Below, piece after piece: positions 10,801 to 62,219 of a stretch of DNA of 64,000 bases (position 1 is its first letter; every line of letters starts with the position of its first letter). The notes beneath the pieces were generated by a model. The model made no database searches. It saw nothing but the letters and a program-made list of their open reading frames with translations, and was not told where the DNA came from. Both the position numbers and the translations under genes were made by a program. The DNA lies in assembly GCA_020091685.1 (NCBI GenBank), contig CM034599.1, positions 26,907,922 to 26,971,921 on the forward strand, given 5' to 3'. Origin of the DNA: Lutjanus erythropterus (lineage: Eukaryota; Chordata; Actinopteri; Lutjaniformes; Lutjanidae).

Positions 10801-11711
10801 CAGAATGTGGATAAAATATAGTTTTAGTGCCTTTTTACTGGGCACCAACCTTGCCTTTATATGCATATTGTCGAAAACCTTAGACCTTAAGTCTAAATAA
10901 TGCTACAGAAGGCGTTCACACCTGTCAGACACAGATGGGACACAAGACCCAAATAGTAGCGTTTCTGTTGCATGAGACATGTGAATGAAAAACGTGTCTG
11001 ACTCGCTTGCCGTCGAAACGGGATTATGCTTTATGAGACGGGGCTCAGGACAGTCACCCTGAGGTAACACAACCAAACATTTGACAGATACTTTTTTGAC
11101 ACGATGGAGCTGAGAAGAACACAAAACTGTACTACCTGGACGTTTTGGAGGCGATGGGCTGCCCCAGAAGAGTCTCCTCATTGTGTTTATACGTCGACTT
11201 TTCTCAGTGTTTTTCTTCTCCTCAAATTTGGAGAAGGTGAGAGGAGTTCCATCATTGCTCGGCCTGCAATGAATAAATCAACATCCAAATCAAAACCCAG
11301 TTTAAATCAAAGGCACTTAGGTTGTGTCAAGCTGATATAAGACAGTTATATTAACAAAGCATTTATGCTAAGTGGTCCATTAATAGTTATGTGATATATG
11401 TGTAAGCTATTATTTCATTGTGTGTAACCATAACAGCCAAGAACCCACTTACATACAGACACCATCATGCTGGTACCATACCATTGTCATTACAGCTAAC
11501 AAAAATGTTACGCTCTTTTGAGTCTGAATGACCATTAGAGGCGGTGCGTTTACCTTGTGTCTTGTCTCGGGGCTCCAGCTGGACGTGCTCTCTCTCTCCA
11601 GCACTTAGAGCAGAAGCCTTGCCATGCAGGGTTTCCATAATACCCACAGGCGTTCTTGCAGAGCAGCTCCTCCTGAGAAACTCTGATTCCTCTTTGCTTA
11701 TCTGTCCACAT
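7889..11711 (-). CDS. rabgef1: Rab5 guanine nucleotide exchange factor (Rabex-5 family), lacking the MIU helix
   Basis: Activates Rab5 on early endosomes and binds ubiquitin. Eight coding exons on the minus strand: 11711-11554, 11263-11136, 10518-10367, 10269-10200, 10109-9974, 9880-9786, 8661-8405, 8305-7889, about 470 residues (human about 491). Near the N-terminus is an A20 zinc finger (residues 18-37, C-x3-C-x11-C-x2-C, with the ubiquitin-contacting pair Tyr24-Tyr25 in [16 protein letters not shown]). Next comes [15 protein letters not shown], a membrane-targeting helical region, the helical bundle ([25 protein letters not shown]), the VPS9 catalytic core ([48 protein letters not shown]) with the key Asp and Tyr kept, then a C-terminal coiled coil ([15 protein letters not shown]). 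The MIU segment after the zinc finger in mammals is replaced by about 20 unrelated residues. It could be the rabgef1-like paralogue. Intron 6 is packed with MITEs. Confidence 0.93.
8755..9062. repeat. MITE remnants in rabgef1 intron
   Basis: Begins TTAAAGGGGTAGTTCAAC and TTTTGGGAAATACATTC, a common fish repeat head. It ends in sequence of the TTAA family (ATGACTGAATTTTCATTTTTG), the same right arm as in the element at 53567-53962. It looks like two MITEs joined or nested; no target duplication was found. Confidence 0.6.
9106..9590. repeat. Interspersed fish repeat in rabgef1 intron
   Basis: Starts AAAGGGATAGGTCACCCCAA and continues with CTTGGCCTGTAGTGC, GATTGTTTTGGTATGAGTTG and a CCATAGAGATGCCTGCCTTC block. 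A related copy lies at 27618-27790 beside cfap251. Inside it TAGTTCCGGTAGA and the phrase around CATGTAGGAGCAACTTTC recur in inverted form (9375-9395 against 9445-9465), so the right part can fold back. Non-coding. Confidence 0.65.
9676..9785. repeat. MITE head next to rabgef1 exon 6
   Basis: Starts TTTAAAGGAGCAGCTCAAGA and continues TTTCTAGTGGAGAGTTAGAT, the same family as the head at 8755. It ends at or near the exon whose donor is at 9786, so a repeat directly abuts a coding exon. Confidence 0.5.
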
Positions 11712-11740
11712 TGTAGAGCTGTCACATCTACTACTGCCAC

Positions 11741-13248
11741 CTGTTGGGCATAAAATTAATATTTCAACCATAAAAATATTTTCAGTATATTCTGTAGATC
11801 TAATATAATACCTCTGACAATTAAAACATTAAAAGGAAACTTAATTTGTGTTGTGTTTGTGACTGCAGGGGCCTAAATCTCACAAGCTTAGTGTCCGCTG
11901 TAGCCTGGTTGTGCTAAGCTTGGCACATAAGCTCAAGCATCTTATGGCCGTGATCATGTATCATGCCGCCAGTCAACTAGGACAAGGGTTCTCGATCTTT
12001 TCTAACTTAAAGGGACAATTCAGCACTTTTCATGTGATGTCCAGTCAGTGTTGATGATAACTGTAGTCAACTGAAGCAATGAATTCCTCCGTGTGTGCGA
12101 GATTGAAAGAGAAAGCTGAGTTCTCCTGCTGCAAAATACGTTGTTCTTCCTGCATCCAGAGATATCACAGTGATGTAGTTGGTGTTGGAGGAACCTCAGG
12201 GTACTTCAGCTCGGATTTCTAGTCTCCTCTGGGTAAAAAAGTAACAGCTATAGGCTAGGGTACTGATACATGGCAATGCGGACATGGGCATCATAAACTC
12301 ATGCATCATGGTACATGTAGGCACTGCCAGCACAGCTCAGCGAGCAGGAGAACAGATTTCTTAGTCAATATAGCACACACTGGGGAATTACTGCTTCAGC
12401 TGACTATATTTAAGATCAACACTGGCTGGACCTCCACATCAGAACTGGTGAATTTTCCCTTTGAGGTCAACTTCTGTTTGAGAACCAAAACAATGAAGTA
12501 ATGCAGCATTGTTTAATACCTATTATTAAAAGAACTATTTAATATACACACTATGATTACAACTCTCCCCGCTGAAACTGTTTTATTTCTAAATGCCATT
12601 GGTATAAAGGGGATGAAATTAGTTATTCTGGTTATTCTGCTCATATCAAAACTACAGCTAATTTCAAGAGCTGCAGGAAATAAGACCCAAAAACTGACAA
12701 ATATATTGTTCTGTATATAAATCTATCCAAAGGGGAATGCTGATTAGCTTTAATGGAGAATTTATCATTGTCTTATTACTATTACTAATCATGCAAAGCT
12801 TCAGTGACAGTGAGTTTTTCTTTTTCCCACTTGGCCTTCATATCCGTCCTTCGCTCGCTCTTTCACGTGACTGCACATTAACTATTTAAGCCATTTGGAA
12901 ATACTAGACTTAACACTACCGCAAAGCGCCTACTAGAAGAAAAGCCAACTGTTGAACCTCAGATTTAATTCCCTGATGAATGAATGAACACTAACAGTTG
13001 ATGAAAGTTGAGTGTTGGCTAGTAGCTAGTCTAGTTATCAGTTCAAGAGCTCTGCAGTGGCTGACTGTCAGCTGAGGGGATTGGAGATAAGAAACACCGG
13101 CTAATGTTAGCTAACGTCATGTAGCTAAAGCTGACAGCGATTTAACCAACTTATTTCGGTTAAATATATTAACTTCATCAACCTGCCCTTAAGTTAAGCG
13201 GTAAACATCCATAAGGATAATAACCCAATAGTTAAAATACCTCCTCAC
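11741..13248. other. rabgef1 first intron region
   Basis: No coding exon seen. It lies between the coding exon that carries the rabgef1 start and a probable 5' UTR exon. It contains a MITE of about 455 bp at 12006-12463, whose ends (CTTAAAGGGACAATTCAGCA, and in reverse CCTCAAAGGGAAAATTCACC) are imperfect inverted repeats. Confidence 0.5.
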
Positions 13249-41100: not shown

Positions 41101-44100
41101 TGGTCTCTGGACATTCCATTACAACACGCAAATCACGCAACGCACAAACTGACTGAGGCCAGCAACTGCTGTGTTCTGCACAGTAAATTGCTGGTTGCCC
41201 CCATGGCGTTTGGTTGGTTCGGAGAGAGTGATATTTGGCATATATAACAGCAGTTTGCTGTCTGAATAAACTGTCTGATGGCAAGGTCAAAAAAATTGTG
41301 AAAATATTCTAAACACAGTGTACAAACTTGGGCTATCTACTATAGGTAATACACCGACAATTAATAAGTACCTTATACAGGCCCACACAAATAATCTGAA
41401 CTACCCCTTTTAACATTGTCAATCTGGCAGTAGAGCTGTGTCACTTCACCTTAATTACCACAAGATAGCGCTCAAGCGTTTCTGGCAAGCACAGAGGAAA
41501 ACTGCTGGCAGATTTACAATGCAACTATGCTTCTGTCTGGATACATTTAGAAAATAATGTCTACAGCAAACAAATTCCATGTTTTTTGTATTTTATTCAA
41601 TCAGCAAAATAATCTTAACCAATTCAACATGTTTTTCAGGACTGTTGGACCAAAAAGCTGTTTAGGGCTTTTCACACAACATATTCATATCCCAGGGCTA
41701 TCCTTAGGGCTTACAGCTCTCTTAGCCTGGGCTGAATTGCAGTGTGAAAAGCTGTTTAATATACTTACTACCTCTAATAAAGTGTTAACCTAATAAATAT
41801 GTCTTAGAGAGAGAGAGAGATTGCAGTCAGCAAGCTCCCTGCTTTTTTTTTTTTTTTTTTAAACTTATCCTAAGAAATTCACTTTCAAGATGATACTTTG
41901 TGCCAATTTTTGACCTGAAAGCTGTTCGAATGGATGAAACTGGTTTAGAGTTATGCCAACCAAAGACTTTATTTTATGTATAAATGGAAGAGCCACTGAG
42001 GATAATGTAAAAAATGAGAAGTCATTTATGTATATTCATGTATGAACACGCATAAAACCAACATTGCATCCCTTAACATTAATGTTCACCGTTTCAGCCC
42101 CTTCACCATTCACCGTTTCAGCTAATGCTGTGATTGTCACACCAACACCTCTGAAAGCAGATGTGGTCCCAAATGCGGGAGTGGTCATCGCTCCTTCTCA
42201 TCTTGGAGGGGTATGTTTTCAGCTCTGTCAGTGCCATCCTCACTGTTTCCTTTACTTCTTGCACCACAGTGAGTCTTGAAATTATTTGTCAGCAGAAACT
42301 TAAAAAACTGCATTATTTAGAGTTCACTGTTCATTTTGTCCTAATGTGTGCAGTTCATAAATGTGAGATTAAACTCATCTTAAAACTCAAGTGAGTAATG
42401 GCACAGTTAAGAAAGATGTTTTATTGTCATGGTTCTCACTCCTCTCATTCACATCTTTTTCATTTATATTTGCATTGTCTAATTTTTCTCTCTGCAGGTA
42501 TCACAGCCTCGTGGATTTCATGTTGTGTCTCAAACACAGAAGTCTCCCCAGCCGATTGTCCCCAAAGAAAAGTCTTACTCTCCCAACCGCAAAAATCAGA
42601 AGGCCTCTTCTAGTGTTGGTAAGAGTTCACACTACCCAAAGCATATCATTACTCCAAACCCACCACTTGTTACAAGTTTACTTGCTTGTTTCTTCCCTCC
42701 AGTTCACAGTCAGTCAGGATCAGGTCAAGGATCACCACTTGGTTTAGATCAAGTTCCTAGTCCCCAGTCCCTGATCAGCAGCAGCAGTACACCTCTGGTA
42801 AAGAATGAACAAAATCAGGTTTGTCTTTGTGTGCGTTTGTTTCGTAACATAAATGGTGCCAAATTTTCCTTTAATATTTTTGAAAATATGAATTGACTGA
42901 ACTCAGTGCTCCAGCAAATGTATAGCTCTGTTATTATCATCAGTAGTATGTCCCCTTTTCATTTGTAATATATGACACTCTTATTAAACCTCTGTGTAAT
43001 CATTCCTCTGCTACTGTGTGACAGTGCCGGAGGACAACACATATATCCGCCGAGCAAAAGAGACGATCAAACATAAACAGTGGCTTTAAAACACTCTGCA
43101 ACCTGGTTCCTACTCTGAAGTCACAATCAAATGTAAGTCTGTGTACCCCTGTGTCTCTGTAAAACAATAGATTCAGAAAATCACATTTTTGGTCATGATT
43201 ATGAACAGGAATTTGTTCCACGTACCATGCTAAATATTTGATTTGCTTTATCCCTTTCTAACATTGACTGACTTTGTGCATTTAGATCACTAATGCAGTC
43301 ACGTTGCAGAAGACAGTGGAGCACATTGGGAAGCTCCAGCAGGAGAGGCAGCAGATGCAGGAAGAGGTCAAGAGACTACGGGAGGAGATAGAGGGGCTAA
43401 ACGCCTCCATAAGGTATATATCTCACCCCTCTTATGATATAAAAAAAGCTGCACAGACAATTAACACATTAACTCTCAATTGTTTTTTTTCTTCTATCAC
43501 TGCTTGACACACAGCATGTGTCAGGAACAGCTGCCCGCCACAGGGGTGCCCATCAGACGGCATCGCCAGGACCACATGCAAGACAAGTTCAATGAATATG
43601 TTAAGAATCGCACTCTTCAGGACTGGAAGTTCTGGATTGTATCCTTTAATGAAAGAGCTAACACTGACTTACACTGTTTGCTGCTTAGTCATAACACAGA
43701 ATACGGTGTAAGCACTTTGCTTTGATCTGCAGCTCTTTTGTGTCTGAGTCTGTGTATTAGTCTGATCTGAACAGGGTGTCATATCCTGTGTCATGCACAG
43801 TAGAGGTAGACTTGAGAGAAGTGATATGTTACGCAACCTAACCATTTTAAAGTCTTTCTGTTGCACTATATAAAATAAATATAACCAAAAAGGACTCTGC
43901 AAATACAAATCTATCCCTAACTAAATGAAACAAAGTAGAAGTAAAACCTCAACTAAGTGACCCTACCTGGCCTAAAACCCAAAAAGCAATTATTTTTGGA
44001 TTTAATGTAATTCATTAGATTACGATCAGCTGTGATAGAGGGAAGAGGTGGGACTGAGTCTTGCTGTCTTCAGCAAAGATGTCAGAAAAAAACATATGTA

Positions 44101-45614: not shown

Positions 45615-47241
45615 TACATACATACATACACACACACACTGCCATGCTTATACCAGGATCATATACATCATGTTAATCTAAAAATATATCATGAATATTC
45701 ACACATGTTGAAGGAAAACTGCACAGGAAGTTTCGCTGCTCATTTGTTGCTGATGCTTTGAATCACATGGATAAGACAGACCCAGTATAGACAAATGCTT
45801 CAGTATGGTATGATGTTTACACTGTGGAGACGGGATAATTCAGTTACTCAAGATTTTCTTCCTACTTTTTATCTGTCACTATCTCTGTTGCCTTCTATTT
45901 TGCTACCAAGCAACCATGACACAACTCCAGCTTCAGATTCATGAGCAGAAACAGTGATGAGCACACTTTCCAATCATTTTTTTAACCTCCCACTTAGTGA
46001 AAATGCTATGCTTTTTTTCCGGTCTCAGTCTGACTTCAGCAATTGCACTTCGTGGATCTGATAATGTTAGGTGACGTCTAAAGATTTCTATCGTGTGGTC
46101 ACAGTTTTAGCACCACACAGCTCAGCTTTAGGAGGCTCAGCCTATGTCGGAACAGAAGACTAAATAAATCAAGAAGGTTATATTTTTACGTCTTTATTCC
46201 ATGTCTAGTGGGGATGTCCCTTCAAATTTATTGATTCGGTTAACGATCCAAAGTGTGCTGTGGTCAAATCATCAGTTGTAAGACTGTTTGAAATCGCCCT
46301 CAGTCTGACATACAGGGCTCTTATGCATGTTTAATGCCGCAGTCATGGAAAAAGTCCTGGCAAATGACAACTTTTGCCACAATGTAGAGAAGTTTAGATG
46401 GATTTTTCCTTCCCAATACTGATTACATCACCTGAACTTTGCATAATCCTGTGTGGATGTGATATGATTGTTGTTGTTATATTGCCTGGCTCAAGTAGAA
46501 AAATAATGGTGTACAGGATGCTGCTGAGAAGTGGCAGGGTCCCATTTCTCTTTTGAGGCATTGAAGTGCATTGACTCATTTACTCATCACAGAGTCATAG
46601 AAAACATAGGGGCAATAGAAAAGATACCTGCACACCAGTTCAGCTGGGCTAGGAAGCCACAAAAAAGTCCACAGACTGAGAAAATGCAAATAGTCTCATT
46701 TAATTAAGACATGGGTGTTCAAACAAAAGGTGCTTACAGTGCAAAATAAAATATTTTTGCATTAATCTCAGCGTGTGGCTTTCCAGCCCAGCTGAACTGG
46801 TGTGCAAGTATCTCTGCCGTCCTTTCAAGTTTGCTTCCAGTACTGACGCACCCGAGATGAATTTATTTTGATGCCCCAAGTACGTGCAGTTTCCCAGCAC
46901 CTTGATGATTTTCCATTGCACATTTACACTTTCATGAAATATATTGTTTTTGTCTTTTTTTTTTACAGCAGAATCCAGCCCTTGCCTGCAACCTAGTCAT
47001 TACAAATAGCTTAGCTGTAGTATTGACCAAAGTCTGTAAGGAAGCAATACTGTAGCTTCAAAATGTTTTACAGTCATGTTATGGTTAGTAAATTGTGGCT
47101 TATTGTTTTTCAGTGGTGCTGAGTACCCTTTGCCAGCTGAGCACGAGCACGTCCATTCTTAGTGATCCATCCCTGCTGCCTGAAGAAGCCATGCAGGCTG
47201 TCACACACACAGATGGTTTGCCTGGTACTCAGAGGAGGTGA
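29129..47241 (+). CDS. mlxip: MLX-interacting protein (MondoA), glucose-sensing bHLH-ZIP transcription factor
   Basis: Pairs with MLX and activates glucose-6-phosphate-responsive genes. Seventeen exons: 29129-29451, 33862-33968, 35739-35824, 36121-36210, 36314-36355, 36703-36943, 37727-37816, 37996-38090, 40022-40613, 42098-42210, 42498-42618, 42703-42818, 43025-43132, 43286-43413, 43515-43638, 44343-44472, 47114-47241; 877 residues (human 919). The N-terminal Mondo conserved regions are clear (IIHSGHFMVSSPHS, YQTYHFGK-like QTYHFGKASMSHLSIDASL, LVSPKWKNFKGLKLLWRDKI, NAIWRAWYMQYVEKR). A Ser/Pro/Gln-rich middle follows. The bHLH at about 674-708 keeps His678, Glu682 and Arg686 (HISAEQKRR), then a leucine zipper (LQKTVEHIGKLQQERQQMQ) and the C-terminal dimerisation/cytoplasmic domain (DWKFWIFSIIIKPLFESF). 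Start: first ATG in the frame (MATKEMSL). Confidence 0.97.
29650..30290. repeat. Tandem array of about 130-bp units in mlxip intron 1
   Basis: A phrase of the form CCACAGRGTAAAAATACTCC recurs at about 29680, 29785, 29918, 30048 and 30184, each followed by AGTAAAAGTTC-like and ATTATCAGCAAAAT-like blocks. Spacing is about 105-135 bp, so about five degenerate units. The unit resembles part of the common fish repeat with GTAAAAGTACCAATACCAC. Immediately right (30285-30422) is a short hAT-type MITE from TAGAGCTGCAATG to GTTGCAGCCTTA. Confidence 0.75.
30423..33861. other. Remainder of mlxip intron 1
   Basis: Long intron, a usual place for regulatory sequence in this gene family. No further coding exon was found on either strand. 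A segment near 30520-30620 (CAAGTTGGACAGTGTGCAGG in reverse, then GCGACGTTTCAGTACTAGAC) looks like an interspersed repeat that I cannot name. Confidence 0.5.
34030..34735. repeat. Interspersed repeats in mlxip intron 2
   Basis: Starts with TTTAAAGGTCTAGTGTGTAA, the head of a common fish repeat (to about 34140). A segment with ATCCAGAAGGAAGTTCTTGTG follows (34240-34560); this resembles a LINE or SINE tail and is related to 28455-28690. A short CATA microsatellite is at 34709-34732. Confidence 0.55.
37360..37470 (+). repeat. hAT MITE fragment in mlxip intron 6
   Basis: Begins GCTAGGGCTGTCATAATTC and continues with alternating GATTTGATTTGAA blocks, as in the terminal part of a common fish hAT MITE. 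Only one end is seen. Confidence 0.4.
38963..39231. mobile_element. hAT-type MITE with perfect 8-bp target duplication
   Basis: A 269-bp element from CAGTGGTTCCCAAG to TTGGGAACCACTG, with near-perfect inverted ends. It is flanked by AATTAGTC on both sides (38955-38962 and 39232-39239). Non-coding; in mlxip intron 8. Confidence 0.92.
39329..39775. mobile_element. TTAA MITE, mlxip intron 8
   Basis: A 447-bp element with TTAA at each end. Its termini TTAAAGGGATAGTTTGGATT and, in reverse, TTAAAAGGATAGCTTGGATT are inverted repeats. It contains GCTGTGGACAGGGTCAGCAAC, shared with the copies at 40674-41413 and about 59060-59450. Confidence 0.85.
40674..41413. mobile_element. TTAA MITE, mlxip intron 9
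   Basis: A 740-bp element with TTAA at each end and inverted termini (TTAAAGGGCTAGTTTGGATT; in reverse TTAAAAGGGGTAGTTCAGAT). Same family and orientation as 39329-39775, with extra internal sequence. Together the two elements bracket mlxip exon 9. Confidence 0.83.
42085..42121 (+). promoter_or_regulatory. Duplicated splice acceptor at mlxip exon 10
   Basis: TTCACCGTTTCAG occurs twice, ending at 42097 and 42121. The distance is 24 bp, so both acceptors keep the reading frame. Use of the second would remove eight residues (about PSPFTVSA) from the Ser/Pro-rich region. Confidence 0.6.
44473..47113. other. mlxip intron 16
   Basis: Intron of about 2.6 kb before the last coding exon. It contains a MITE relative (44980-45330) and a CA microsatellite of about 70 bp (45536-45610) followed by CATA units. 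The open frame through the CA repeat is a composition artefact. No extra exon was seen. Confidence 0.6.
45536..45640. repeat. (CA)n microsatellite with CATA tail
   Basis: An almost uninterrupted CA run of about 70 bp, then five CATA units and another short CA run. Likely polymorphic. Confidence 0.95.
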
Positions 47242-49442
47242 GGTGACCCAAAAGCCACCTGAACCTCTTAACAGCAATCATCAAAATGACATATCACTAG
47301 TTTACCTTATAGCCATTCAGCAAGGTCACCTCGTCTTCCACAGTTGGACAACTTCCCTAAAAAATAAATGGAAAATGAAAGCGAGACCTGGCTCACTTCT
47401 ACTCTGTATGGACGATGGTCATAAATTTGTTCCGTTATAAATTGATTCTTGGGAATGATGCACACAGGGAGCCCCACCTTTGATGTCACATTTATAACAA
47501 TTGCGCAAAAAGAGCTTTTATTGTATTATATTTGAATGAAAGCAACTACTACTGCCTTCACCTACTTTAGGTGAAGATCCTCTAAATGCTTTAATGAAAG
47601 GTGGTACTTGTGGTTTGCTTTTTTTAACATTAGATATTTAAGTTGAAATCACTTTTACAATGTAAAAACACAACATTGTGTTAAAAAGGGAAATACTGTT
47701 TGATTGTCCTCTCTTTAGATGTATAAAGTGTATGAATATGATGCTTTTTCCACAAGGAGATGAGATGAATATGTTTTTTTAGGACTAGCTGGGAGTGTAG
47801 TAGGTGTTTTTTTGAGTTTCCGTAACCTCCCTGGAAGGCTTCACACCAGAATGCAGGGCATCGTCTGAAACATGGTCAAGTTAACCACTTGTGGGCTGGT
47901 CAATGCATAACTAGTACAAGACAGTAGAGTGCTTTATCATCTTATTCATCCCTCATTTACTCAGGTGAATGTTATTTTGCCAGTAAACAATGGTGGTTTT
48001 CTTAGTGGTTTTTTGTCCATGCAGAACGTCTTCCTTCATGCTTTGCTGGCTCTGCCCATTTCCATTGACTTCAACTGTAAATCATGCAAGAAAGCAGTCA
48101 TCTTCGATACAGTATGTTACACACATGGGTGTCTATTGGGCAGGTTTCTACCTGGCAAGTCACAGAAAAATGAAGCAATATTACTCCACAGCCCTCATAG
48201 GGAGCGTAACTGAAATATCAGTACAGATCATACTACATTCACATGTACAGTGTTAGCTGAATACACAGTAGCTGTAGGGGTCTGTTTTTTTGTTGGTCAC
48301 TCAGGGCTTTTCCATTCAGCTATGAACAAATCGAGTCAGGATCCTTCTCAGCAGGACGAGATGTTGTTTGTAAGGATGCAGGTTAGGTCACAAGGTTTGA
48401 TATACAGATGGTTTTTTTTCTGCTTTTAGTTACACAAAAATATAACGTATGTTGATGACAGCCATGGGAAAGAATAGTCTACCACGTTAAAAGACACGGC
48501 TCACAGAAACAGACCAAAAGCCGTATCATAGTAGTTCAACCTGTCCATTAAGTTAATTTTTTGTGTTACTCATGTCACATTTGACAGAGCACTCTGTCGA
48601 CTCCCTGAGAATCAGAACTTATTCAGATTCAGTCACCATGTCTGACATATGTCAGCCTTAAGGTAAAAAAACTGGTGATCTCTTTTCTTTTTTTTATTTG
48701 TGGTTCAGCACTCCTCAGGCAGACATTGATTTTATGACTTGTGTTTTTTTCTTTTCTGCAAAACAACTGAGTTTACTGAGTTTTACGATAGCAAAAGGCA
48801 CCACTGATAGTCCTTATTTGATGAATGTGCAGCTTTTTGTGTGCAGTCTTTTATTTTAGATTGCAGATGTGTTATAATGAGAAATTTTACTTTTCTACAA
48901 GATAGAAATAATTTACCTGTCAGCAGTCATCAGAATTCAGCAGTGTATAGTTGTGTAGTCTATTTACAGTGAAGCAAAGCTCAAAGACCTATTTATGAGT
49001 CAAAAATATTGTATTAGAACTCTTAACAAAATGAAAATGCACCCCTAAATGGAGCTATTGTTGTCATAATTGTGAATTAAAATGTTTTTCTTTTTGTTTC
49101 TCCCCCTTCAAACAGACAGCAAAAATGATTTAACTAATAACAGAACAGACCCGATGTTCCACTGCAGCTTGGTATTTGTGTGGTGATGTTATTGTTCTTC
49201 TTTCTCTCATCTTATATTAAAGTGTTTGTCATACAAGGTTGAATTTTACCAGATCATATCATTGCAGATTGGATCTGCCCAAGTTGGTTCTCCCCAAATT
49301 TAGTGTTGTATTTCATTTGTTTTAAGAAGTAAAGATATTTTCTTATGCTACATCTGGGTGTGTTTTGTTCTCTTCCATAGTTCCCAAATGTGTTCTTGCA
49401 ACAAGTTTTAAGGTGCCTTAAATGACTTGGAAACACAATAAA
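47242..49442 (+). other. mlxip 3' UTR
   Basis: No gene seen. Long AT-rich tail after the mlxip stop, as usual for this gene. It ends in a cluster of AATAAA hexamers, the best at 49437-49442 with another about 15 bp on. Proposed end of transcription about 49460; inferred, since no transcript data are available. Confidence 0.55.
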
Positions 49443-50150
49443 AGCAATACAAAATAAAAATCTTGACTTCTTATTTTCAATAAATATCACTTTGCTTTAA
49501 TAAATATTACTTCATCATCAGATACTGATAATAAATAACTCCCATAAGTTTACTTTCTCATCCACACTGTATAAAACGGGATTACAAAAATTGTTTTTTC
49601 AATAATTTAAAACTTTGTAAAATAAATAAATACATTCTTTTTTTTTTTTTTTTTTTTTTTAGAACAAGTTGAGAAAACTCAATTTCAAGGCAACTGCTCT
49701 CACTTGATTTTTGAGCTTTGAATAATCAGACTATTAAGTTTTGAAATAAACTAAAAAAAAGTTTTGTAATCTTAAAATTATATTTTATAATCTTTTGTTG
49801 ATATAATTTACTTTTCCTCTTCAGATAAACTTGACTCTTTGCATTGTTGCATTGACCAAAACACACTGTTTTTTCACAGTGGGCTGTGAACTACATATGT
49901 CATGAGTTAAATGATTGCAACTGAAAATCTGATATTATTAACCATTATTCACTTTCACTTCAGTGAGTTTACACAACAATTTTGGAAATACTATTTTTGG
50001 GGGTTTCTGAAACTCAAAGATCCAAGTATATCTAAAGAATAAAAGTAAATTATCTCAACAAAAGATTATTAGTTGTTAAAACCTTTTAAAAACTAAAGGG
50101 TTCTAAATCTAAAATCTATTGAAGTAAGTTGCCTTGAAATTTTGAGTTTT
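49443..50150. other. Spacer between mlxip and the first cytokine-like gene
   Basis: AT-rich, with a T-run near 49637-49660. No exon was seen. AAACTCAATTTCAAGGCAACT (49676-49696) is matched in inverted form by AGTTGCCTTGAAATTTTGAGTTTT (50126-50149), giving a 470-bp stem-loop-like arrangement next to the 3' end of the minus-strand gene. Confidence 0.5.
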
Positions 50151-53105
50151 CTAAAGACCTTGTTCGAGCCTCTGGTCCAGTTGATCAAGGAAACATTTGA
50201 CAAACTCATGAGCTTTCATGGTCTCCTCAAAGACGGGTAGGCTGCAGTTGAGAGAGTTTTCTGTTGCGTTTAAGTATTTCTTTATATCCAAAGCGTACTG
50301 GCTGGCTTTCTCCAGCTCCTCCGTCAGGTCCGGGGCCAGCTCAGACATTTTAGGCAAGTAGCAGCAAAAGGAGGAGACTTGGGCAGTGAGGTTGTCCTGC
50401 TGCTGCCCCACATACTGTTCGATGTTCAGGTTCTGGCAGGTAGTGGTGGGAAATAGTCCAGGTCCATTCTGCAGGACACAGACTTGATCAGTACATGTGC
50501 AATACTACTATTCATTATTATTATCATGTACAATATTATGTTTAATATATTTTAAAATAATGCAATATTATGTTTAATATTGTGCAATACTGGCTTAATT
50601 ATCAGATGCAATATTATTTTAATACTTTTCATTATCACTGCAAATGTTACTTTCAATGTCATGGCCAATACTACTTTTCCTATTTTAGTTAGCTTTTTTA
50701 CTTATTTTACTTACTGTTATTGTATTAGGCAATCTTTTTGCATTTACTCTTTATACACTTAATATGTTATATTTCATTTTATATTAAATTTTCTATTGTT
50801 TTTATTCTTATGTTGTAATTTTGGAGCATCCTCTGGAACAAGAATTTCCTTTTGATCCTTTATATTTCTACCTCTCAACATTTCAGAAAATGTACTTTTT
50901 ACTCCATTACACTGATCTGTCAGCAGTAGTTTCTGGTTCTGGTTACTCAGTTTATAAAACATAATGTGTTGCTCCAGATTAATCTACCCAAAAGTGTGAA
51001 ACAGTTATAACTGGACCAAATATAACATTACAGCACCACTTACATGTTAATGCATCAATAATAATGATCAAATATGCAACTAACTGGAATCATTCTACAA
51101 AATGAGTAGGATACTTTCTTTTACATTTGATACTTTAAGTAGCCTACACTTTGTCCTGAACAGGGCTGGGTAGTAAGAGATTACATGTAATCATGATAAT
51201 ATAATCAAATTCTAAAAAATAAGTAACTATAATCAGCCCATATGACATTTGAAAAAATGTGTCATTAGAATTACATTTTTAAGGACTACTTGATTACATT
51301 TTACATATATATATCTGCTGCATATTCTTTTTTTTTTTTAAAAATCGCAAATATGATACATAGGCTGAATATTATAATAGTACTGTACATCAAAATAAGT
51401 TACTCCTCTCAGGTTGCCAGTTTTGTTGTTTCTTTACTGGTCATTTACTGATAATTTATGGATAATGGAGTTTTTATTCCTTTTTATGTACATGGAAGAT
51501 GACCATTTTGAGAAAGAGCTCCCCTTACTCTTTTCGTAAAGGGGTAAACTGTAAATGTTAAATATGCTAAATGTGTTTTATTCGCATTGAAATTCTTTTG
51601 AGATGTTTAAAGGAAAAAAAGAATACTTGTGGGGCTCAAATTTATCCAAATATCCAAAAATATCCAATGTATTACATTACTAATTACAAAAAATGCCATG
51701 TAATTTCTATTTAGTAACTGACAACATTTCCAAGTAATCTGACCCAACCTTGGTCCTTAAAGCTGATGTAATTTTAGGGACAGGGCACAAGATCAGCAGC
51801 AGCCAAATGCCAGTAAAATAAGCAATCCCATGTGACTGGACAAAAAAGTTAATTCTGGACCCCGCTTAGGTCACATTGCAAATGAATGCAAGACTTTTAC
51901 TTGTAATGGAGTGTTTTAGATTGGGTACCACTTTACGATAAACTACCCTTAAAAATGATTTATAAATGTGTTATAATTAGGTCGTTAATTAGTTTGTAAA
52001 CACTATAATCATTAATAAGCAATTATAAATAAGTAGTAAAGTAAAAATAATGTGGGCTCATTACTTGACAAGATCCTGTTACTATTAAGATATGCTGAGG
52101 ATGATTAAATGATTTATTAACAAATATGTGAAGAAGCTGACAGATATAAATGCTGCTGATGGAGAAGACAAAGTAAGCGTAATAAGCAATGAAATTTGAG
52201 GCTTATCAGTTCAAATAAATGTGGTCTCGCTATCTGGCGAGCAACAGGTCACTGTTGCCTTTTTTATGGAATGTGTTGTAACAGGCTATTAATGATTTAC
52301 ATAATATTTACAACAATTCAGAAATCATTCATAAGCGTAGTCCTTTTGTAACGTGGTACATTATATTGCATTCCTAATTTTACTTCAGTGACTGATCTGG
52401 AACTTTCTTTCTCTACTGATAATTACAGTCCTAACACCAATGAAGGCGCTTGAACAATGGAAGCAATATATTGACTGTGACCATTTCAGCAGGAAACGTA
52501 GACTATAAACTAATCTCCTTATATTTCACTGATGCTCTCAGTGGTAGGCTACCGTTTTTAATTAAAAAAAAACAACAAAAAACAGATTACGCCTAATATC
52601 ATTTTGATTGTACTGAATGTACATTGTAATTCTTGCATATTTCTTGAGCACTCAAAGAAAAAGTTTCAGTAACAACAGGAACAAGTCGTGCATGTAAAAA
52701 TAAATAAAGAAATTTGATTAAGCACCAAAAGTCTTACGAGTTTGCCCAGAGCGATCTTCGTCTCGTTCTGCATCATCTGGATGGTTAGGTTCAAGGCGTG
52801 TTTGTCACCGGTAGGTGCGCAGGCTGCATGTGCAGCGAGCAGGAGGATGAGTACAACTGCGACAGAGAAGGACACACATTTGAGATGAATTAGACTTGAT
52901 TACACACACACACACACACACGCACACACACACACACACACATGCACACACACACAATCTGCAGTCACTACTAGAGAGTTTTTGTGTTGCGCAACTAATC
53001 AGAGGCAAAACTTGCAGGTTTTAGTTGTAGGACTGCCTGTTCTCAAAATAGACGCTGCGGGACGTGAAACCGCACTTGAAGATGCTTACCAGCACGGCAA
53101 TCCAT
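50151..53105 (-). CDS. Secreted class I cytokine-like protein A (IL31-locus candidate)
   Basis: Not recognised as a named gene. Three coding exons on the minus strand: about 53105-53090 (16 nt), 52856-52738, 50468-50151; intron phases 1 and 0. They encode 150 residues. Residues 1-19 form a signal peptide (hydrophobic run VVLILLLAAHAAC). The mature chain is predicted helical, with five N-glycosylation sequons (Asn28, 36, 71, 112, 119) and cysteines 56, 80, 81, 120, 137. It ends in an amphipathic helix around HEFVKCFLDQLDQRL. Size, secretion, helical character, a tiny first exon and phase 1/0 introns match the LIF/OSM/IL31 type of four-helix cytokine. Position supports this: between mlxip and lrrc43 and antisense to them, like mammalian IL31. 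The family assignment is inference; the gene model itself is sound (all splice sites canonical). Confidence 0.7.
51161..51752. mobile_element. hAT-type MITE in intron 2 of cytokine-like gene A
   Basis: A 592-bp element from CAGGGCTGGGTAGTA to TGACCCAACCTTG-like GACCCAACCTTG, ends imperfectly inverted. Flanking 8-mers GTCCTGAA (51153) and GTCCTTAA (51753) differ at one base, fitting an aged target duplication. The interior has runs of ATTACATGTAATC type. Non-coding. Confidence 0.8.
52902..52956. repeat. (CA)n microsatellite in intron 1 of gene A
   Basis: CA run broken by CGCA and TGCA units, in the 230-bp first intron of cytokine-like gene A, about 45 bp from the exon 2 acceptor on the minus strand. 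Confidence 0.9.
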
Positions 53106-53566
53106 GACGCCAGGAGGTTTTAGTCAGTCAGTAGCAAGCTCTGTGATGTGCCCCTTTCTCTGGTCCAGCTTTCGAGGATCATTTTTATTAGGACTCCGTA
53201 GATAATCATCTTAAATATTTTCCCTTGCGTTGCGTGTATGGCCGTCACAGAAAGAGTCATGCAAGTTTAGGATTCAGTTTTACCCTCTGGGGGTTCCCTC
53301 TTTCTAGGATTCTCTCTCCTAGACAAAACCTACACATACCGTAAAGAGCAAAAGTCTGATAAAATCTTTACAACTCAAAAGGTGTGAAAATTCACAGTTT
53401 ATTAAAGAGGGGTGTTTTACCGTGATATGATGGTATCAATAATCGTGTAAATAAAAGATAAATGTGTACATATACAAAAATAAATATAATATTTGTTTTG
53501 CTGTCTTTGTGAGGGACAGGTTTAATTCATCTTAAGACATTTCAGCATTGCAACGACGTTTTGTGG

Positions 53567-53962
53567 TTAAAGAGACAGTTAACCTAAAAATTAAAATTCA
53601 GTCATCTACTCACCCTCATGCCAATTCAGGGTCAAGTTTTGTTTTTTTTTTGTTTTTGTTTTTTGCAGAATCTCCCAAACAATGTACGTGAATGGTGACC
53701 CGTTTTCAACGTTAAAAAATCAACCCAAAAACAGTCCCATAAAATGCCTCCATACTGCTCGTCTGGAGTAATCCAGTCCAATCCAAGTCTCCTAAAGCAA
53801 AATGACTAAAAAAATGTTTATTTACACCATGTTTTAGCATATTTTCTTCCTGTGAAACTCCAACAGTGTTTTATGGACTAAAAACTAAATGTGACCTTCA
53901 ACCAGCATGAGGGTGAGTAGATAAAGACTGAATTTTCATTTTTGGTTGAACTATCCTTTTAA
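53567..53962. mobile_element. TTAA-flanked MITE
   Basis: TTAA at both ends. Left arm has TTAAAGAGACAGTTAACC and ATTCAGTCATCTACTCACC; right arm in reverse has TTAAAAGGATAGTTCAACC and ATTCAGTCTTTATCTACTC. Same family as 6604-6837 with a longer centre (CAAACAATGTACGTGAATGG). Confidence 0.85.
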
Positions 53963-54129
53963 GACTTGGTTTTACGGTCAAGGTGAGAATTATGTTCAGG
54001 TTGGTTAGGGCTGGGATTAGGCATGAAAAAGAGATTAAGTTAAGTTTAGTGCTGCAACAGTGTGTCAATTAGTTTATTAGTCAACTGAAAGAAAATTAGT
54101 TGCCAACTATTTTGATTATTGATTAATTA

Positions 54130-54890
54130 AGTTGAGTAGTTTTTAAAGTAAAAATATCAAATGTTTGCTGATTCCAGCCTCTTAATTGTGTTGGTTTGCT
54201 GTTTTTCCTTGTCATTTATGATAATAAATGTAAAGATTTTTTGAGTTTTGGACTGCTGGTGAAAATGATGATGAAGTGTAGAAAGCCAAGTTTTCTGCCC
54301 AGTGATAGGTTTCACCACTAAGGTGCACTGTGTCATACATGACATTTGCTGGTGAAGAATCATTTAATTGTCTTCTTTGCTGTGACATCAAAGAGTAAAG
54401 AATTATTTTTTAAAAATAAAATATTTTATTATTGCCAATTCATTTTTTAAAAAGTCATGAAGCCTACATTATCAGTATAGTCAGAAAAAAAACAAAAAAG
54501 TCATACATTTGCTGGTTCTAGCTCCTTAGATGTTTGCATTACTGCTTTTCTTAGTCACTTATGATAGCAAATGATGATGTTTGGGGTTTTTTGGACAGCT
54601 GGTTTGACACGAAGCAACTTGAAGATGTCACTTTGGGGTCTGGGAAATTGTAATGAGCATCTTTCACAATCTTTTGACAAAGTTTTTTGCCTAATGATGG
54701 GTTTCACCACTGAGGTGCACTGTAATAGAGACATGTTATATGCTGATGAAGAACTGTTTAATTGTTGTCTTCACAGTGAGATCAATAATTAAATAATTCT
54801 AAAAAAAAAAAAACAACAACAATAGACAAGCAGTTCACATAAAATATTCTGTTACAATCAATTTATTTTTTAAAAAGTAATGTAGCCACA
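54130..54890. repeat. Degenerate tandem duplication 3' of cytokine-like gene B
   Basis: Blocks recur in the same order about 380 bp apart: TTTGCTG(A/G)TTC (54172, 54508), TTTCACCACT(A/G)AGGTGCACTGT (54310, 54703), GAAGAA(T/C)(C/T)(A/G)TTTAATTG (54355, 54747) and TTTTTTAAAAAGT (54445, 54865). The left part derives from a hAT-type MITE, but the shared block extends beyond it. Confidence 0.7.
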
Positions 54891-54977
54891 ACAAACAAAC
54901 AAACAAATAAATAAATAAACAAATAAATAAATAAATAAATACGTTGTCCAAAGTGTTTTCAGTGAAGGCCATAGCCT

Positions 54978-56427
54978 TCACACACAGGTGATGTTTGCAA
55001 AGTCCTGCACCCATTTTCTGGCAAAGTAAATGATTCGGAGGCCAGTTTGTTTCTTACTGTAATCATGTGAAGTTGAAACATTTCTGTGGCACTGTGTTGG
55101 GATGTGTTTGGTCACGTGCTTGAACTCATTATGAAAAGCTCTAATGTTTCCCATGATGAGGTCCTCCTGGTCCCTCTTAACGAGGTAACTGATGATTGTT
55201 GGTATGTGCTTGTCGAGGTAGTCGGTGATTGCACAGATCGAGGCACTGATTTCTTCGGCGGTGTTTCCCACAGGCAAAGTTATTCCCTCGATGGGCTCCA
55301 AACTTTTTGAGTCATTGTCTGTCTGTGGTTTTTCAGGAAACATGATCTTGCTCTAGAAAGAAAGTGCGAGTCATTAAAGTTGGCAATGGAGCACACAACT
55401 GAGAGGCTGTAAGCTGTCAAAACTTTTATAATTGGTTGAAAAGGTCCCTCCATCTATGGTGAGGAGGTAATGTGACTTTGTAGTGCCTTTTTGTTGTGTT
55501 ACCTAAATTGGCCTTGACCACTGAACACATCTCCAATTAAATTAAAAGTGCAAAAATATAAAGAAGTTGTCAAAGCAAGACTATGTTCTGTGTCACTTTC
55601 AATGCACTGTATAGTTAATAAACTTTAAATATGATGTGTTTACGTACGTAGTCATCTTCTGCCGTCTGTAGATTACACAGAGATTGTGCAATCCTCCTCA
55701 TTTCTTCCTGAAGCTTCTTTGTCTCAGTTTGCTTTAGTGGTTGTGAGAGTATAAAGGAGCTGTGCAGCATTACCACAATGCAGGAAAGCAGGAGTTCTGC
55801 AGGAGGATTTACAAAGAAAATATGGTGTCATCATATACAAAGCAGGTCAACAGAAGCTTTCTTAAGTCTAAATCTAATCAACATCAAAGAGTCAATACTC
55901 AAGATTTTATGGAGAGAGAATAATAGACTAAAGACTTCCAGAAACAACTGTGGTATAAAGAACGACTTCATTTTATTTTCTGGCCTTCATCAGGTTCACG
56001 CAAATGAAATGTTCTGTGTACCACAAGTCTTACTGGAGTTTTAACCTCTTCTTGCCTTTGCCATGCACCTTGAAAGTAGGCAAACTTGTGCCAGAAATCC
56101 CTGTTCATTTTCTAGAGAACAGTGGAGTTTAAGGTAATGTTGCTGAAAAGCTAATCTCAGATTTAAGGTAGGCTGCCTTCAGACATCTCAGTCCATCGGT
56201 AATCAGGCAGCAACTATAAGGAAATAAACTGTTGGTAAAGCAGTAAAATGTTACCGTTTGAGCAATTCCTTAAATAATTATTTGCAATACTTCTAAAATC
56301 ACAACATAGTTATCATGCTAATCTACACACAGGTATACCGAGTTTTTAATTTTCTTACTCACTACAGAAAGAAAATCCTTAATTATTTCACTTTTTTAAA
56401 AGACAGCTTACCTTTACGAAGAGACAT
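54978..56427 (-). CDS. Secreted class I cytokine-like protein B (IL31-locus candidate)
   Basis: Not recognised as a named gene. Three coding exons on the minus strand: 56427-56412 (16 nt), 55796-55648, 55352-54978; phases 1 and 0, 179 residues. Signal peptide about 1-23 (ELLLSCIVVMLHSSFILS). A first amphipathic helix follows (TKKLQEEMRRIAQSLCNL), then a linker and a helical segment (AEEISASICAITDYLDKHI, TIISYLVKRD). A further helix holds NIRAFHNEFKHV and a last helix RIIYFARKWVQDFAN, with sequons NVS and NIT near the C-terminus and four mature cysteines (residues 46, about 95, 145 and 178). The four-helix layout and the short basic-aromatic last helix suit an IL6-family cytokine. Gene A has the same 16-nt first exon and intron phases but little residue identity by eye, so an old tandem duplication is likely. 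Alternatives: an M17/LIF-like cytokine, or another secreted helical family. Gene model strong, family inferred. Confidence 0.72.
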
Positions 56428-56483
56428 GGTTTGACTTCCGTCTTTTTGCTGAGTTTATGCTCTGACAGTGGCACACTCCATGC

Positions 56484-56490
56484 TTATATA
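56484..56490 (-). promoter_or_regulatory. TATA box of cytokine-like gene B
   Basis: On the minus strand CGATATATAAGCATGG contains TATATAA, about 57 bp upstream of the start codon. A transcription start near 56458 would leave a 5' UTR of about 30 nt, as in many inducible cytokine genes. A palindromic AP-1 site TGAGTCA lies farther upstream at 56947-56953. Confidence 0.6.
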
Positions 56491-57797: not shown

Positions 57798-60700
57798 ATG
57801 AGCTCAAACAGACTTTCTGCTGTTTTAGAGAAGCAGATTCACCGCCTGTGTCTGAATGACTTTCCATGTGGACATGGCAGCTGGGTGAGTTTTTTTCAGC
57901 TGTAAATTAATTGCAGTGTTTTCTAGATTATTTTAATGTCCTCATGTCCATCATAGTAATTTAAAGCGGTCTCATCACTTCTTAATGTTGACATGTCCAC
58001 CCTATTATTATCAGTCTCTTGTTGCTATAGAGCGGATCTTTCGGACTATAGAATTATTTTCTGGGTGTATGCATTAATTATCTGTATATGTGTTTGTAGC
58101 ATGATGGGACTGCAACTTTCATTTTGTTGTGCAGTCCTGTTTTGTATAATGACCTTGATACTTTGCTTATTGTATGAGATACTAATAAACCAGTGCTCTA
58201 CAACCTTTACTGTTAAACAATCCATTTCTGACTGACAAAGAAATTTTAAAATTTATCTGGAGCTACCACTATTAAGTTTTATATTTTCCTCTGAGACTTT
58301 TCTTTTTTCGTTTATTTGGATTTGGGATCTGTAGTTATCTTAAGACTCAAGACTAGCCATGGCCATAGAAAACTTTTTTTCAGTCATTCTATAAGCTAAA
58401 CATTTTTACCATTTGAGAATAAGAATCACTTCATGCCTACATCCATAAGTGAAAATTAAAATATTAAAATCAGAACCATTATTCATTTCCATTTAATTAT
58501 TTGTCAAAACTACAGGGAGCCACTGCAGAGGGGCAAAAAGTCATATGTGGCTCTGAGGCTACAAGCTGCTGACCCCTGTAATAAACAGTTATTATATTCC
58601 CAGAGAAAGACACAAGACAGTACAGAGGGAGCAGGGACAGAGGAGACAGATGCCCTTCTGGATCTGCTGAGCTGCCCTCACTCTCCATGGATGTATGATG
58701 AATCATGGAGCTCTCAAGCCTCGGCCCTGAGACAGCTGGCTGTGCTCACACCTGAACGCCTGGACACTGATTTCATTTATAATTACTTTACTGTACTTCG
58801 TGTTGTGGACAGAAACGTAAGTGTACTGTTTTTTCCTAGATCCAAATGATTTTTAAGTTTGATTCAAACCACTCACCGATTTTCACCTGACCAGACCCCA
58901 AGCCTTTTTACAGTGTTTGATAAAACTGGTAGAACATTTAACTTACCTGTTTTATACAATTTCATTAAGAAAATAAGAAATTAAAATGCCAAGCATATTG
59001 TTATTTCAGCTGAGGTGATGCATGTAGCCTGTTGCAGTTGCTATTGCTCATTTTCTCATTTTCTTATTTTTCCAACTTACGGTATTGGTGGTCAGCACGA
59101 CCCCACTTTGAAGAAGCAGCAGGAATACTGGTGTAGAAAGCTGAGGAATGTACTGCTGTGGACAGGGTCAGCAACAAAGTATACTGTAGCCACCTAAAAA
59201 AAACAAAAAAAAACAATGGAAGTTTTAGTGTATGCTATGTTAAGAATTCTTTATAGCATTACCTTTCTGTCAGACAGCCTTTTCTGACAGGTAATTGCTG
59301 TTATCTCTCCAAACCCACCAGACTCCGTTTGCAAAATAGTAATTTTAGCTTACAGAACACAGGAGTTGGAGGGCTACTGCTGCCTTGATCAGTTAGGTTG
59401 TTTGTGTTATTATGTGACTTAGATGTTTTAAGAGGTTAGTTTGGATTCACTGAGGAAGACAAATTACTGTTTTTACCAAGAGAATCTGGCGTTCCTCTGA
59501 TGGCCGAGGGACTCTGAGCAACCACTTAGATGGTCTGCAGCTGATCTTGTTCAAAGCACAAAGAACAAAGTCAATTACTGCTTGATGCTTTTACATGATT
59601 GCGAAAAGTTGCATGTGATGTTTTGTCTATGTTGTGTTCAGGTATCAGTCATTGACAACGGCCTGTTAAAGTTCTCAAAGCTGGAGGAATTGGTGCTGAG
59701 TGCCAACAATATCTCAAACATCCCCGCAGAAAACCTTCCCAGCACTCTGAAAGTGAGTCTCAGTCCTGCACCAGCTCACTCTTCAGCTTATCAGATCGTG
59801 TGAACTTTCAACAGATTCCTCCATTTGTCACGAAAGGGTGATTTACAGCTGAATCATAGGGGGTAGAAAATTCATAGTGTTCATAGTGCAACATAACTGA
59901 CAATTTTTTAACTCAAACACTGGGTTGCACCAACAAAGATTAACTTAATCTAAGACTAGTTCTCATCAGAGTCCAGATTTAAAGTTGAGCAGAGCTCTGC
60001 TGCACAATTTAAAACTGGGCTAGTCATCTTGAGAAATTAAACCTGACCTCATTATCAGCAGAGGAGGCTAATAAATTAGGAGCTCCTTTAACTCTTGATG
60101 AACTTAAGTTATCTTTAGAAAAAAACGAATAATGGTAAGTCACCAGGAATGGATGGTGTCTATAGTGACTAAGCCTAAAACTTAAAACCACTGAGGGGCT
60201 GCATAGATGGGCTAATAACTTAGTTGACGCGCTTGCCGTGTGCCGCTTCATTATGTCCTGTGAAATAAAAACATCTTCGTCATTGATTTTTGTGGATAAT
60301 TTATTGCTCACTGTACTGGTCTTCAGTGTGTTACATGCAAGAGTCCAAAGTCAGTGTGCATCAAGATCCATAAATCCAACAATCACAAATACATCAACAA
60401 AAGCTTCACCTGGCGTGGTGTGCCAGTGTAGTGATGTGAAAAAACTATTTGTAACACCTGTTGCCTGACGAAAGGTTCCTGCCTAAGTAAACATGTGACC
60501 CCCAAACACAAAGGTGACACCTAGAAGACAACTTACCTACATACATACACACACCTCTTGAAATTTTACCATCCTGAGGTTTACTTAAAATTGTGGACCC
60601 TCTTAGGACCACCACTGCTAGAGATGTTTACTTCAACTATTCAGAAAGGATCATTTGGAAGAGATGTCAGTACAGCACTAATAACACAAAAAAGGATAAG

Positions 60701-62219
60701 GCTCCAGCTAACTGTACCAACTACCGTCCCATGTCTTTACTGAATGCGGATATTAAGTTATTTTCAGAGATATTTTCAAGCTATCTGATGAATAACCTAC
60801 CTAAATTAATTAATCCAGATCAGGGTGGATTTGTTAAAAAGCGCCTATAAGCTGACAGTTTACAACAATTATCACATATCCTGGATGCTTCTTACAGCTT
60901 GACATCACCTATATTTTCAGTTGATGTAGAAAAGGCTCTTGACCATCTTGAATGGCCCTTTTTATGGTCTGTGCTGAATCTTATGGGCTTGGGGTCAAAT
61001 TTTATTAATATTGTAAAAACAATTTATGCAAACCCGTCAGCCAGTGTAGTCACAGACAACATACCTCTCCTCACTTTGAAATAAGTGGAAGCAGTCGGCA
61101 AGGAGATCCAATCTCAGCAATATTATTCTTCTTATCACTGGAGCCACTGGCACAGTCTGTCAGGCTGTTTTCAAGTATTACACTGATAAAATAAAAATAA
61201 AATCAACCCAACATTATATTTCCTTATATGCTGATGATGTCCTTTTGTTTTTTGCTGATATAAAGCACTTTTTCTTCTAAGTATCTTTAAAATGTTTGAA
61301 CAGTTTAGCTACGTCTCTAGCTACAAAGTAAAGTCGTCTTTGCTACCTCTGACCTATATAAGTAAAGAAAGTAAAGAAGACTGTGCAAATTTCAGTATAC
61401 CTGTAGTTGCTCACTCCTGGTACCTAGGAATTAATGTATTTACATCTTTAGAAAAAACTAAGAACTATACTAGAACTCTTAATATGATCAAAAGTTGACA
61501 AAACATTACATTATTTGCTAACAAATTAAAAAGTTAACAAAACGTTACACTATTTGTTAATGAGTGAAAAAGGTAAAGTGAAGAAGTGAAAATAGTTAGC
61601 CTAGTTAGCCCACATATATATATATAAATATAAAAAACAGACAAAATCATAGTAAGTAAAGAAAAAGAGACTGCCTGGCAGCAACAGGCAGACTGTTTTA
61701 ATGGATCAACCAGAGTTAAAGAAAGAAGAGACACATCATAAAACTCAGTTGTGTTCAGTCTGTCCTTTAACTTTCTTTAAGGAACCTGATGATTTTGCTC
61801 AGTCCATCTCAGAAAGGCAGCCATTTTAAAAGTTAAACCTCCTGGAGTGCAACTTTGAAGTTAATACTGGATTACATTTTAAATTAGCGTTTAAAGTTTT
61901 GATGCAACAGAATGTGATTTAAAGATTAAGATTTAAAGATTAAAAGCTTGGCATAACATAATTTGAAGTAAACCTAAACATGATTAAATCAGGTTTGAAA
62001 ATGAAAGTAATTAAAGTGTCACAGGTTTTGTAATGTAGTGATGATTAATTTTTTGATTGTAAATATGTTTCTTTCAAAGATTTTGGAGTTACGTGCCAAC
62101 CAGTTGTCTGCTCTGGACAGTCTCACTAGCCGTCCACCTCCTCACCTACACTACCTTGGCCTTGGCCTAAACAGTCTTGGTTCCCATGATGATGTTTGTA
62201 ATCTCACAGGAAGACACTG
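57798..62219 (+). CDS. lrrc43: Leucine-rich repeat containing protein 43, 5' part
   Basis: LRR protein expressed in tissues with motile cilia. Four coding exons seen: 57798-57884, 58604-58816, 59642-59752, 62080-62219 (phases 0, 0, 0, then 2), about 183 residues; the human protein is much longer, so the gene continues beyond 64000. The start [19 protein letters not shown] and FPCGHGSW match the family N-terminus. Then [48 protein letters not shown] and [19 protein letters not shown] (LRR repeats), and [13 protein letters not shown]. The last donor (GTTAGT at 62220) splits the Trp codon after GRH. Intron 1 contains a hAT MITE 25 bp before exon 2; intron 3 holds an L1-type relic. No further exon was found to the window end. 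Confidence 0.93.
58191..58578. mobile_element. hAT-type MITE with perfect 8-bp target duplication in lrrc43 intron 1
   Basis: A 388-bp element from CAGTGCTCTACAACC to GCTGACCCCTG, ends imperfectly inverted (CAGGGGTCAGCAGC in reverse). It is flanked by TAATAAAC on both sides (58183-58190, 58579-58586). The right end has AGGGAGCCACTGCAGAGGGG and GTGGCTCTGAGGCTAC, typical of CAGGGGTCGGCAACC-type hAT repeats. It lies 25 bp upstream of exon 2. Confidence 0.92.
59060..59450. repeat. MITE copy in lrrc43 intron 2
   Basis: Third member of the family at 39329 and 40674: TGGTCAGCACGACCCCACTT, GCTGTGGACAGGGTCAGCAAC, CTGACAGGTAATTGCTGTT and a terminal TTAGTTTGGATT. No clear left end or target duplication. 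Confidence 0.7.
59940..61480 (+). pseudogene. Degraded L1-clade (Tx1/L1-type) LINE reverse transcriptase in lrrc43 intron 3
   Basis: Broken reading frames on the plus strand keep successive pieces of an L1-type reverse transcriptase. These are [13 protein letters not shown] (about 60085), [12 protein letters not shown] (60645), [18 protein letters not shown] (60722), [11 protein letters not shown] (60825), [16 protein letters not shown] (60915), SRQGDPIS (61095) and the catalytic YADDVLLFF (61225). Stops and frameshifts separate them, and a segment of about 400 bp between 60180 and 60560 does not fit and looks like a later insertion. Not functional. Confidence 0.88.

Follow-up and report, generated by a model that had tools for sequence, protein, structure and literature searches.

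A likely LIF/IL-6-family cytokine gene in a tandem pair at the position of mammalian IL31 in Lutjanus erythropterus

What occupies, in a ray-finned fish, the place that IL31 holds in mammals? The question is raised by a 64,000-nucleotide stretch of DNA from Lutjanus erythropterus (assembly GCA_020091685.1, contig CM034599.1, positions 26,907,922 to 26,971,921 of the forward strand), which was analysed as a whole and is called the window below. Two complete three-exon genes on its minus strand, here named A and B, occupy positions 50151-56427, with all four introns bounded by GT/AG. An earlier note on this DNA had described them as two intact genes for small secreted proteins of 150 and 179 residues, standing at the position and in the orientation of mammalian IL31; our gene models gave identical protein lengths, 150 amino acids for A and 179 for B. 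It is likely that gene B is a new member of the LIF/IL-6 family at the IL31 position, and that it should be called fish IL31 is plausible and unproven.

The locus and its two genes

Genes A and B lie between MLXIP and LRRC43, antisense to both, with CLIP1 further on (CAP-Gly domain, 88.4 bits; CLIP1 zinc knuckle, 64.4 bits; both above cut-off); the right-hand, plus-strand neighbour is probably LRRC43. Mammalian IL31 is likewise antisense to its neighbours. In the horse, the published gene order runs WDR66, BCL7A, MLXIP, IL31, LRRC43, B3GNT4, DIABLO and CLIP1 (PMC6402180). The order found here matches that of the horse, and the flanks given by the HLH domain of MLXIP, by LRRC43 and by CLIP1 agree with the position and orientation that the earlier note had claimed. 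BCL7A, B3GNT4 and DIABLO were not noticed at 47240-50150 of the window or in the interval from LRRC43 to CLIP1 (L001), no search having been aimed at them. When local paralogues were sought in the window and in four downstream loci, nothing below E 0.35 was found except genes A and B themselves. In the explanation that we favour, and which as a whole we regard as moderately probable, the interval 50151-56427 corresponds in fish to the IL31 locus of mammals, and gene B encodes a class I cytokine of the long-chain type that belongs, within the IL-6 family, to the LIF/OSM/CNTF/CT-1 branch.

In A and B alike the first intron is in phase 1 and the second in phase 0, and a hydrophobic leader, judged by eye, stands at the N-terminus of each protein. 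Five sequons were counted in A (28, 36, 71, 112, 119) and three in B (68, 146, 175), along with seven and five cysteines respectively, the leader counted, and AlphaFold2 models of exon 3 were mostly helical in both genes at low confidence, with three long helices in that of A. Signal peptides, several sequons and cysteines, and helical segments had all been anticipated for the two proteins, and each is borne out to this extent. A codon score was ranked over the 61 open reading frames (ORFs) of at least 90 amino acids in the window; the score had been trained on seven of eight stretches, one having been left out, and three of the seven come from the window, so that the highest ranks in part reflect sequence used in training. 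Exon 3 of gene A ranked 4th of the 61, and the whole coding sequence of A scored 0.097 per codon, against -0.105 and 0.042 in the other two frames. The guanine plus cytosine fraction of the coding sequence is 0.51 in A and 0.44 in B, compared with 0.35 regionally.

Gene B and the LIF branch

A protein search with exon 3 of gene B returned 35 candidates, four of which (P0001-P0004) are homologues with 54-56% identity in the alignment; these are unplaced database proteins, for which organism and location are not given. Because of these four homologues gene B lies beyond chance and is, judged from sequence, a real and conserved gene. In all five rows of the B family the last helix carries [FY]xxK (Y in four, F in one) followed by G (+6) and W (+16); the FxxK site at the start of helix D, which was taken as a feature of membership, is thus present in the form [FY]xxK. 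Among 13 reference cytokines the exact spacing [FY]xxK..G.........W was found in CNTF and CT-1 only, and LIF and OSM carry FxxK..G in the same comparison. Counted from the C-terminus, the motif lies at 27 residues in B, 25 in the LIF sequence and 30 in the IL31 stretch of Protein Data Bank (PDB) entry 9uk5, where it reads F-E-C-K. Within the last 60 residues, the full motif arose in 8 of 300000 shuffles of B.

A LIF-family profile was built from LIF, OSM, CNTF, CT-1 and CLCF1 together with M17 of the same genome. It gave 15.6 bits for P0003, 8.2 for P0002 and 7.6 for P0001 (none of 300 shuffles each), 2.5 for P0004 (2/300) and 2.3 for B itself (4/300); true members that had been left out scored 24.2 to 61.9 bits, IL-2 2.7 (11/300) and leptin 1.2 (10/300). 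When the profile of the B family was aligned to the LIF-family profile with hhalign, a score of 21.97 was obtained, which none of 300 column permutations reached (mean 11.5, standard deviation 2.3, best 21.6). The corresponding scores were reached by 98 of 300 permutations for a profile of IL-6, G-CSF and IL-11 and by 178 of 300 for one of EPO and leptin. The best single-sequence match of B was CT-1 (0/200 shuffles; 1/500 in a second, local test). Like LIF, OSM, CNTF, CT-1 and CLCF1, gene B has a leader, intron phases 1 and 0 (the phases of M17 in this genome), a helical exon 3 and the [FY]xxK..G and W spacing of helix D; it differs from them in giving no Pfam LIF_OSM match and in being otherwise hardly alignable. 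The profile of the B family set against single cytokines was uninformative, all of the 25 best rows being shuffles, and against viral contigs it found no relatives. Weak non-cytokine matches (Glyco_hydro_47, E 0.14; a designed protein, E 0.019) were taken as chance.

Several results weigh against this placement. Neither A nor B passed the cut-off of any Pfam family, LIF_OSM and IL31 included, and in searches of Pfam, NCBIfam and PDB sequences no cytokine match was found for either, no solved cytokine being matched. Exon 3 of gene B ranked 18th of the 61 by codon score, with a negative value, and its whole coding sequence scored -0.057 per codon, where the other two frames gave -0.155 and -0.054, no better than one of these. 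The exon-3 models had mean predicted local distance difference test (pLDDT) values of 53 and 57, with helix A outside the models, and were too weak to decide for or against an up-up-down-down four-helix bundle in either protein; Foldseek searches made with them gave nothing at E <= 0.001. The helix-D motif had been seen before it was tested, and two of the five B-family rows matched the NCBIfam model pheS_mito (best E 0.00028), which we take as chance. The LIF-family profile also scored G-CSF at 14.8 and IL-6 at 11.4 bits (0/300 each), IL-11 at 4.4 (1/300), EPO at 4.1 (5/300) and IL-4 at 3.6 (5/300); since non-LIF cytokines score too, B alone (4/300) does not stand out in this test, nor does the LIF branch separate from IL-6 and G-CSF. 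In the comparison of profiles, the score with a control profile of IL-2 and IL-4 was reached by a lowish 9 of 300 permutations, the margin of the LIF score over the best permutation is thin, and the figures of hhalign itself are E 0.0081 and probability 4.9. The signal of the trimmed alignment consists of 24 helix-D columns, and the untrimmed alignment runs through 99 columns in order with the lowest confidence marks throughout. The LIF-profile test thus speaks for such a class I cytokine, the branches not being separated by that test alone.

In a comparison of the same exon-3 models by VIA-align, long-chain cytokines stood among and below unrelated helical bundles; chains of LIF, OSM and IL31 were absent from the rows shown, which excludes nothing.

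As a LIF-type cytokine, the product of gene B would be secreted and would fold as a bundle of four helices. Its fourth helix would offer the [FY]xxK site to a receptor of the LIFR/OSMR type acting in a pair with gp130, and engagement of this receptor would lead to JAK-STAT3 signalling. This receptor use is proposed because FxxK is the LIFR-contact site III motif of the LIF-type branch. Just past the stop codon of gene B there is a run of six ATTTA pentamers, which is possibly an adenine- and uridine-rich instability element of the kind known from short-lived cytokine mRNAs, though a neutral repeat of ATTT would give the same picture; in the former case the gene B mRNA may be under such control.

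Other identities for the two genes

M17, the fish cytokine described in a 2016 review as LIF/OSM-like and possibly derived from a LIF/OSM ancestor (PMC4929537), had to be considered as the identity of gene A or B, the more so as they share their intron phases with a LIF_OSM gene elsewhere in the genome. This gene, on contig C18, was the one candidate over cut-off (24.9 bits, cut-off 23) among five scored in a genome-wide LIF_OSM profile search. It has introns in phases 1 and 0, an exon 2 of 149 nucleotides as in gene B, and FQQKVYGC in helix D, the F/YxxK..G of which recurs in B; it encodes 210 amino acids from the third in-frame ATG, two earlier in-frame ATGs making the length of its first exon variable. 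Its local pairwise z against LIF, OSM, CNTF, CT-1 and CLCF1 was 5.8 to 10.5, and the best z against the whole cytokine panel was 2.5 for A and 4.1 for B in local alignment and 3.2 for each in semiglobal alignment. By its match to the LIF_OSM family, with no published M17 sequence compared, the C18 gene is most likely M17. Unlike this Pfam-detectable gene on another contig, A and B are separate, below the LIF_OSM cut-off and much more divergent; M17 was rejected as an identity for either of them and is, we believe, extremely improbable. The earlier note had recognised neither gene as a described fish cytokine; the known member, M17, lies on another contig. A further reading takes gene B for a lineage-specific copy of CT-1, CLCF1, a CNTF-like gene or M17 that landed in the interval by chance and is unrelated to IL31. 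Its best match to CT-1 and its CNTF/CT-1 pattern in helix D would fit such an origin; B has diverged far more than M17, though, and is hence no recent copy, and a landing precisely at the position and in the orientation of IL31 would be a coincidence, so that we consider this copy unlikely. As for gene A, it is probably a second cytokine of the same gene architecture, evolving faster; that it is instead a lineage-specific secreted helical protein and no cytokine, which would leave B as the only one, seems to us somewhat doubtful. No relative of A at E <= 1 was found among 29 protein-search candidates, its LIF-family score (9 of 300 shuffles; 9 of 200 profile permutations) is no better than those of unrelated cytokines such as IL-2 and EPO, and its helix D lacks the FxxK motif of the LIF branch, all of which speaks against a cytokine. 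On the other side, A lies adjacent to B and shares with it the short first exon, the intron phases and the strand, its exon 3 is coding-like, it has a leader and three exon-3 helices, and human IL31 itself scored no better on the LIF profile (5/300).

It may also be asked whether gene A or B is a direct orthologue of IL31, older than the divergence between ray-finned fish and tetrapods, kept between MLXIP and LRRC43 and duplicated in this lineage, with signalling proposed through an IL31RA/OSMR-like pair. We hold this to be possible, if short of probable. Position, local gene order, minus orientation and the intron phases 1 and 0 of A and B speak for it, and the size class is the same. In the IL31 chain of 9uk5, which we take to be canine (the species is not shown), the F-E-C-K lies near the motif position of B and was aligned on the FxxK column by the LIF-family profile with an insignificant score. 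Human IL31 has H-E-C-K instead, and neither of the IL31 sequences compared, two in number, has the G (+6) and W (+16) of B. In salmon, one transcript carries the annotation interleukin-31 receptor A (PMC5418855), and IL-31 itself is given as unknown in fish to date in the 2016 review (PMC4929537). There is one such gene in mammals and two here, with no detectable sequence similarity to IL31: Pfam gave no IL31 match for A or B, the B profile against IL31 (13 of 100 permutations) and gene A against the IL31 profile (149 of 200) were at chance level, and in pairwise comparison with IL31 neither A nor B exceeded a z of 1. A search of the genome (937.6 Mb) with an IL31 profile found nothing among 4 candidates scored, and had no positive control. 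Yet human IL31 reached a best z of 3.3 locally (CLCF1) and 3.8 globally (G-CSF) against the panel without IL31, compared with 6.8, 7.6 and 5.9 for LIF, CNTF and OSM, and by profile its score against its own family was reached by 10 of 200 permutations. As IL31 barely resembles its own family, the absence of similarity to A and B weighs little, and orthology rests on position and orientation. That LIF-type genes change fast follows also from the 14.9% identity of human and zebrafish LIF given in a zebrafish paper (PMC4146584). Position, orientation and architecture make an ancestor shared by A, B and IL31 plausible and leave it unproven; in that case both fish genes and IL31 would go back to one ancestral gene. 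The earlier note had offered fish IL31-locus cytokines or an unnamed IL6-family branch, of which two genes at the locus and a LIF-type gene B are supported, and IL31 orthology and cytokine status of gene A are not shown.

Coordinates, surroundings and significance

Table 1. Features of the locus (window positions) and the LIF_OSM gene found elsewhere in the genome.
Feature	Position	Strand	Remarks
MLXIP bHLH exon, left neighbour	43022-43132	+	HLH E 1.2e-08
Gene A, exon 3 with stop	50468-50151	-	105 codons; three long helices predicted
Gene A, exon 2	52856-52738	-	119 nucleotides; leader and putative helix A
Gene A, exon 1	53105-53090	-	16 nucleotides coding, then phase-1 intron
Six ATTTA pentamers	54908-54940	-	just past gene B stop; offsets 37, 41, 45, 49, 61, 65
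Gene B, exon 3 with stop	55352-54978	-	124 codons and stop; homologues P0001-P0004; [FY]xxK..G.........W 27 residues from C-terminus
Gene B, exon 2	55796-55648	-	149 nucleotides; leader and putative helix A
Gene B, exon 1	56427-56412	-	16 nucleotides coding, then phase-1 intron
TATATAAG box	56483-56490	-	about 55 nucleotides before the start of gene B, judged by eye
Right neighbour, two ORFs assigned to the early exons of LRRC43	58460-59803	+	probable identity
LIF/M17-like gene	L005 1435-2662 (G000 contig C18, 18880604-18883972)		LIF_OSM above cut-off

To the left of the two genes, a C-terminal exon at about 47152 is presumably also of MLXIP, and a WD-repeat gene on the plus strand is one that we take to be CFAP251/WDR66. 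Of the ORFs assigned to LRRC43, that at 59501-59803 gave LRR matches on the plus strand under cut-off, and that at 58460-58849 gave no Pfam match. The gene after CLIP1, presumably ZCCHC8, likewise had no Pfam match. Inside LRRC43, at 60578-61081, an ORF resembling reverse transcriptase (RVT_1 match under cut-off, E 0.0064) is followed by another ORF, and the two are probably a retrotransposon remnant. A RABGEF1-like gene with VPS9 and A20 zinc finger domains was observed on the minus strand at 7889-11828, left of the genes of 12q24 type; in human, RABGEF1 is on a different chromosome from these. Around the C18 gene, 80 kb contained an HSPB8-like HSP20 domain and SUSD2-like VWD and Sushi domains, together with stretches that we take to be TAOK-like and TESC-like, which had no Pfam matches; these surroundings are presumably genes of human 12q24/22q11 types and not the neighbours of OSM and LIF. 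In the genome-wide LIF_OSM search, candidates L006-L008 were below cut-off and were set aside, L006 having internal stops.

Among the papers listed in the literature searches there was no report of fish cytokines at this locus; most subscription journals lay outside the search, which makes this weak evidence of novelty. Tentatively, the IL31 locus may have housed cytokine genes since early in bony vertebrate history and hold two of them in tandem in fish; a LIF-type FxxK site would have been present in the original form, from which mammalian IL31 would be derived by fast evolution. Gene B would in that case be the long-missing fish IL31 and gene A its diverged twin, the F-E-C-K of 9uk5 and the H-E-C-K of human IL31 being possible traces of the motif. 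If a LIF-type cytokine is indeed conserved at the IL31 position, it would date the IL31 locus and tie IL31 to the LIF/OSM branch, and fish immunologists would gain one or two new signals.

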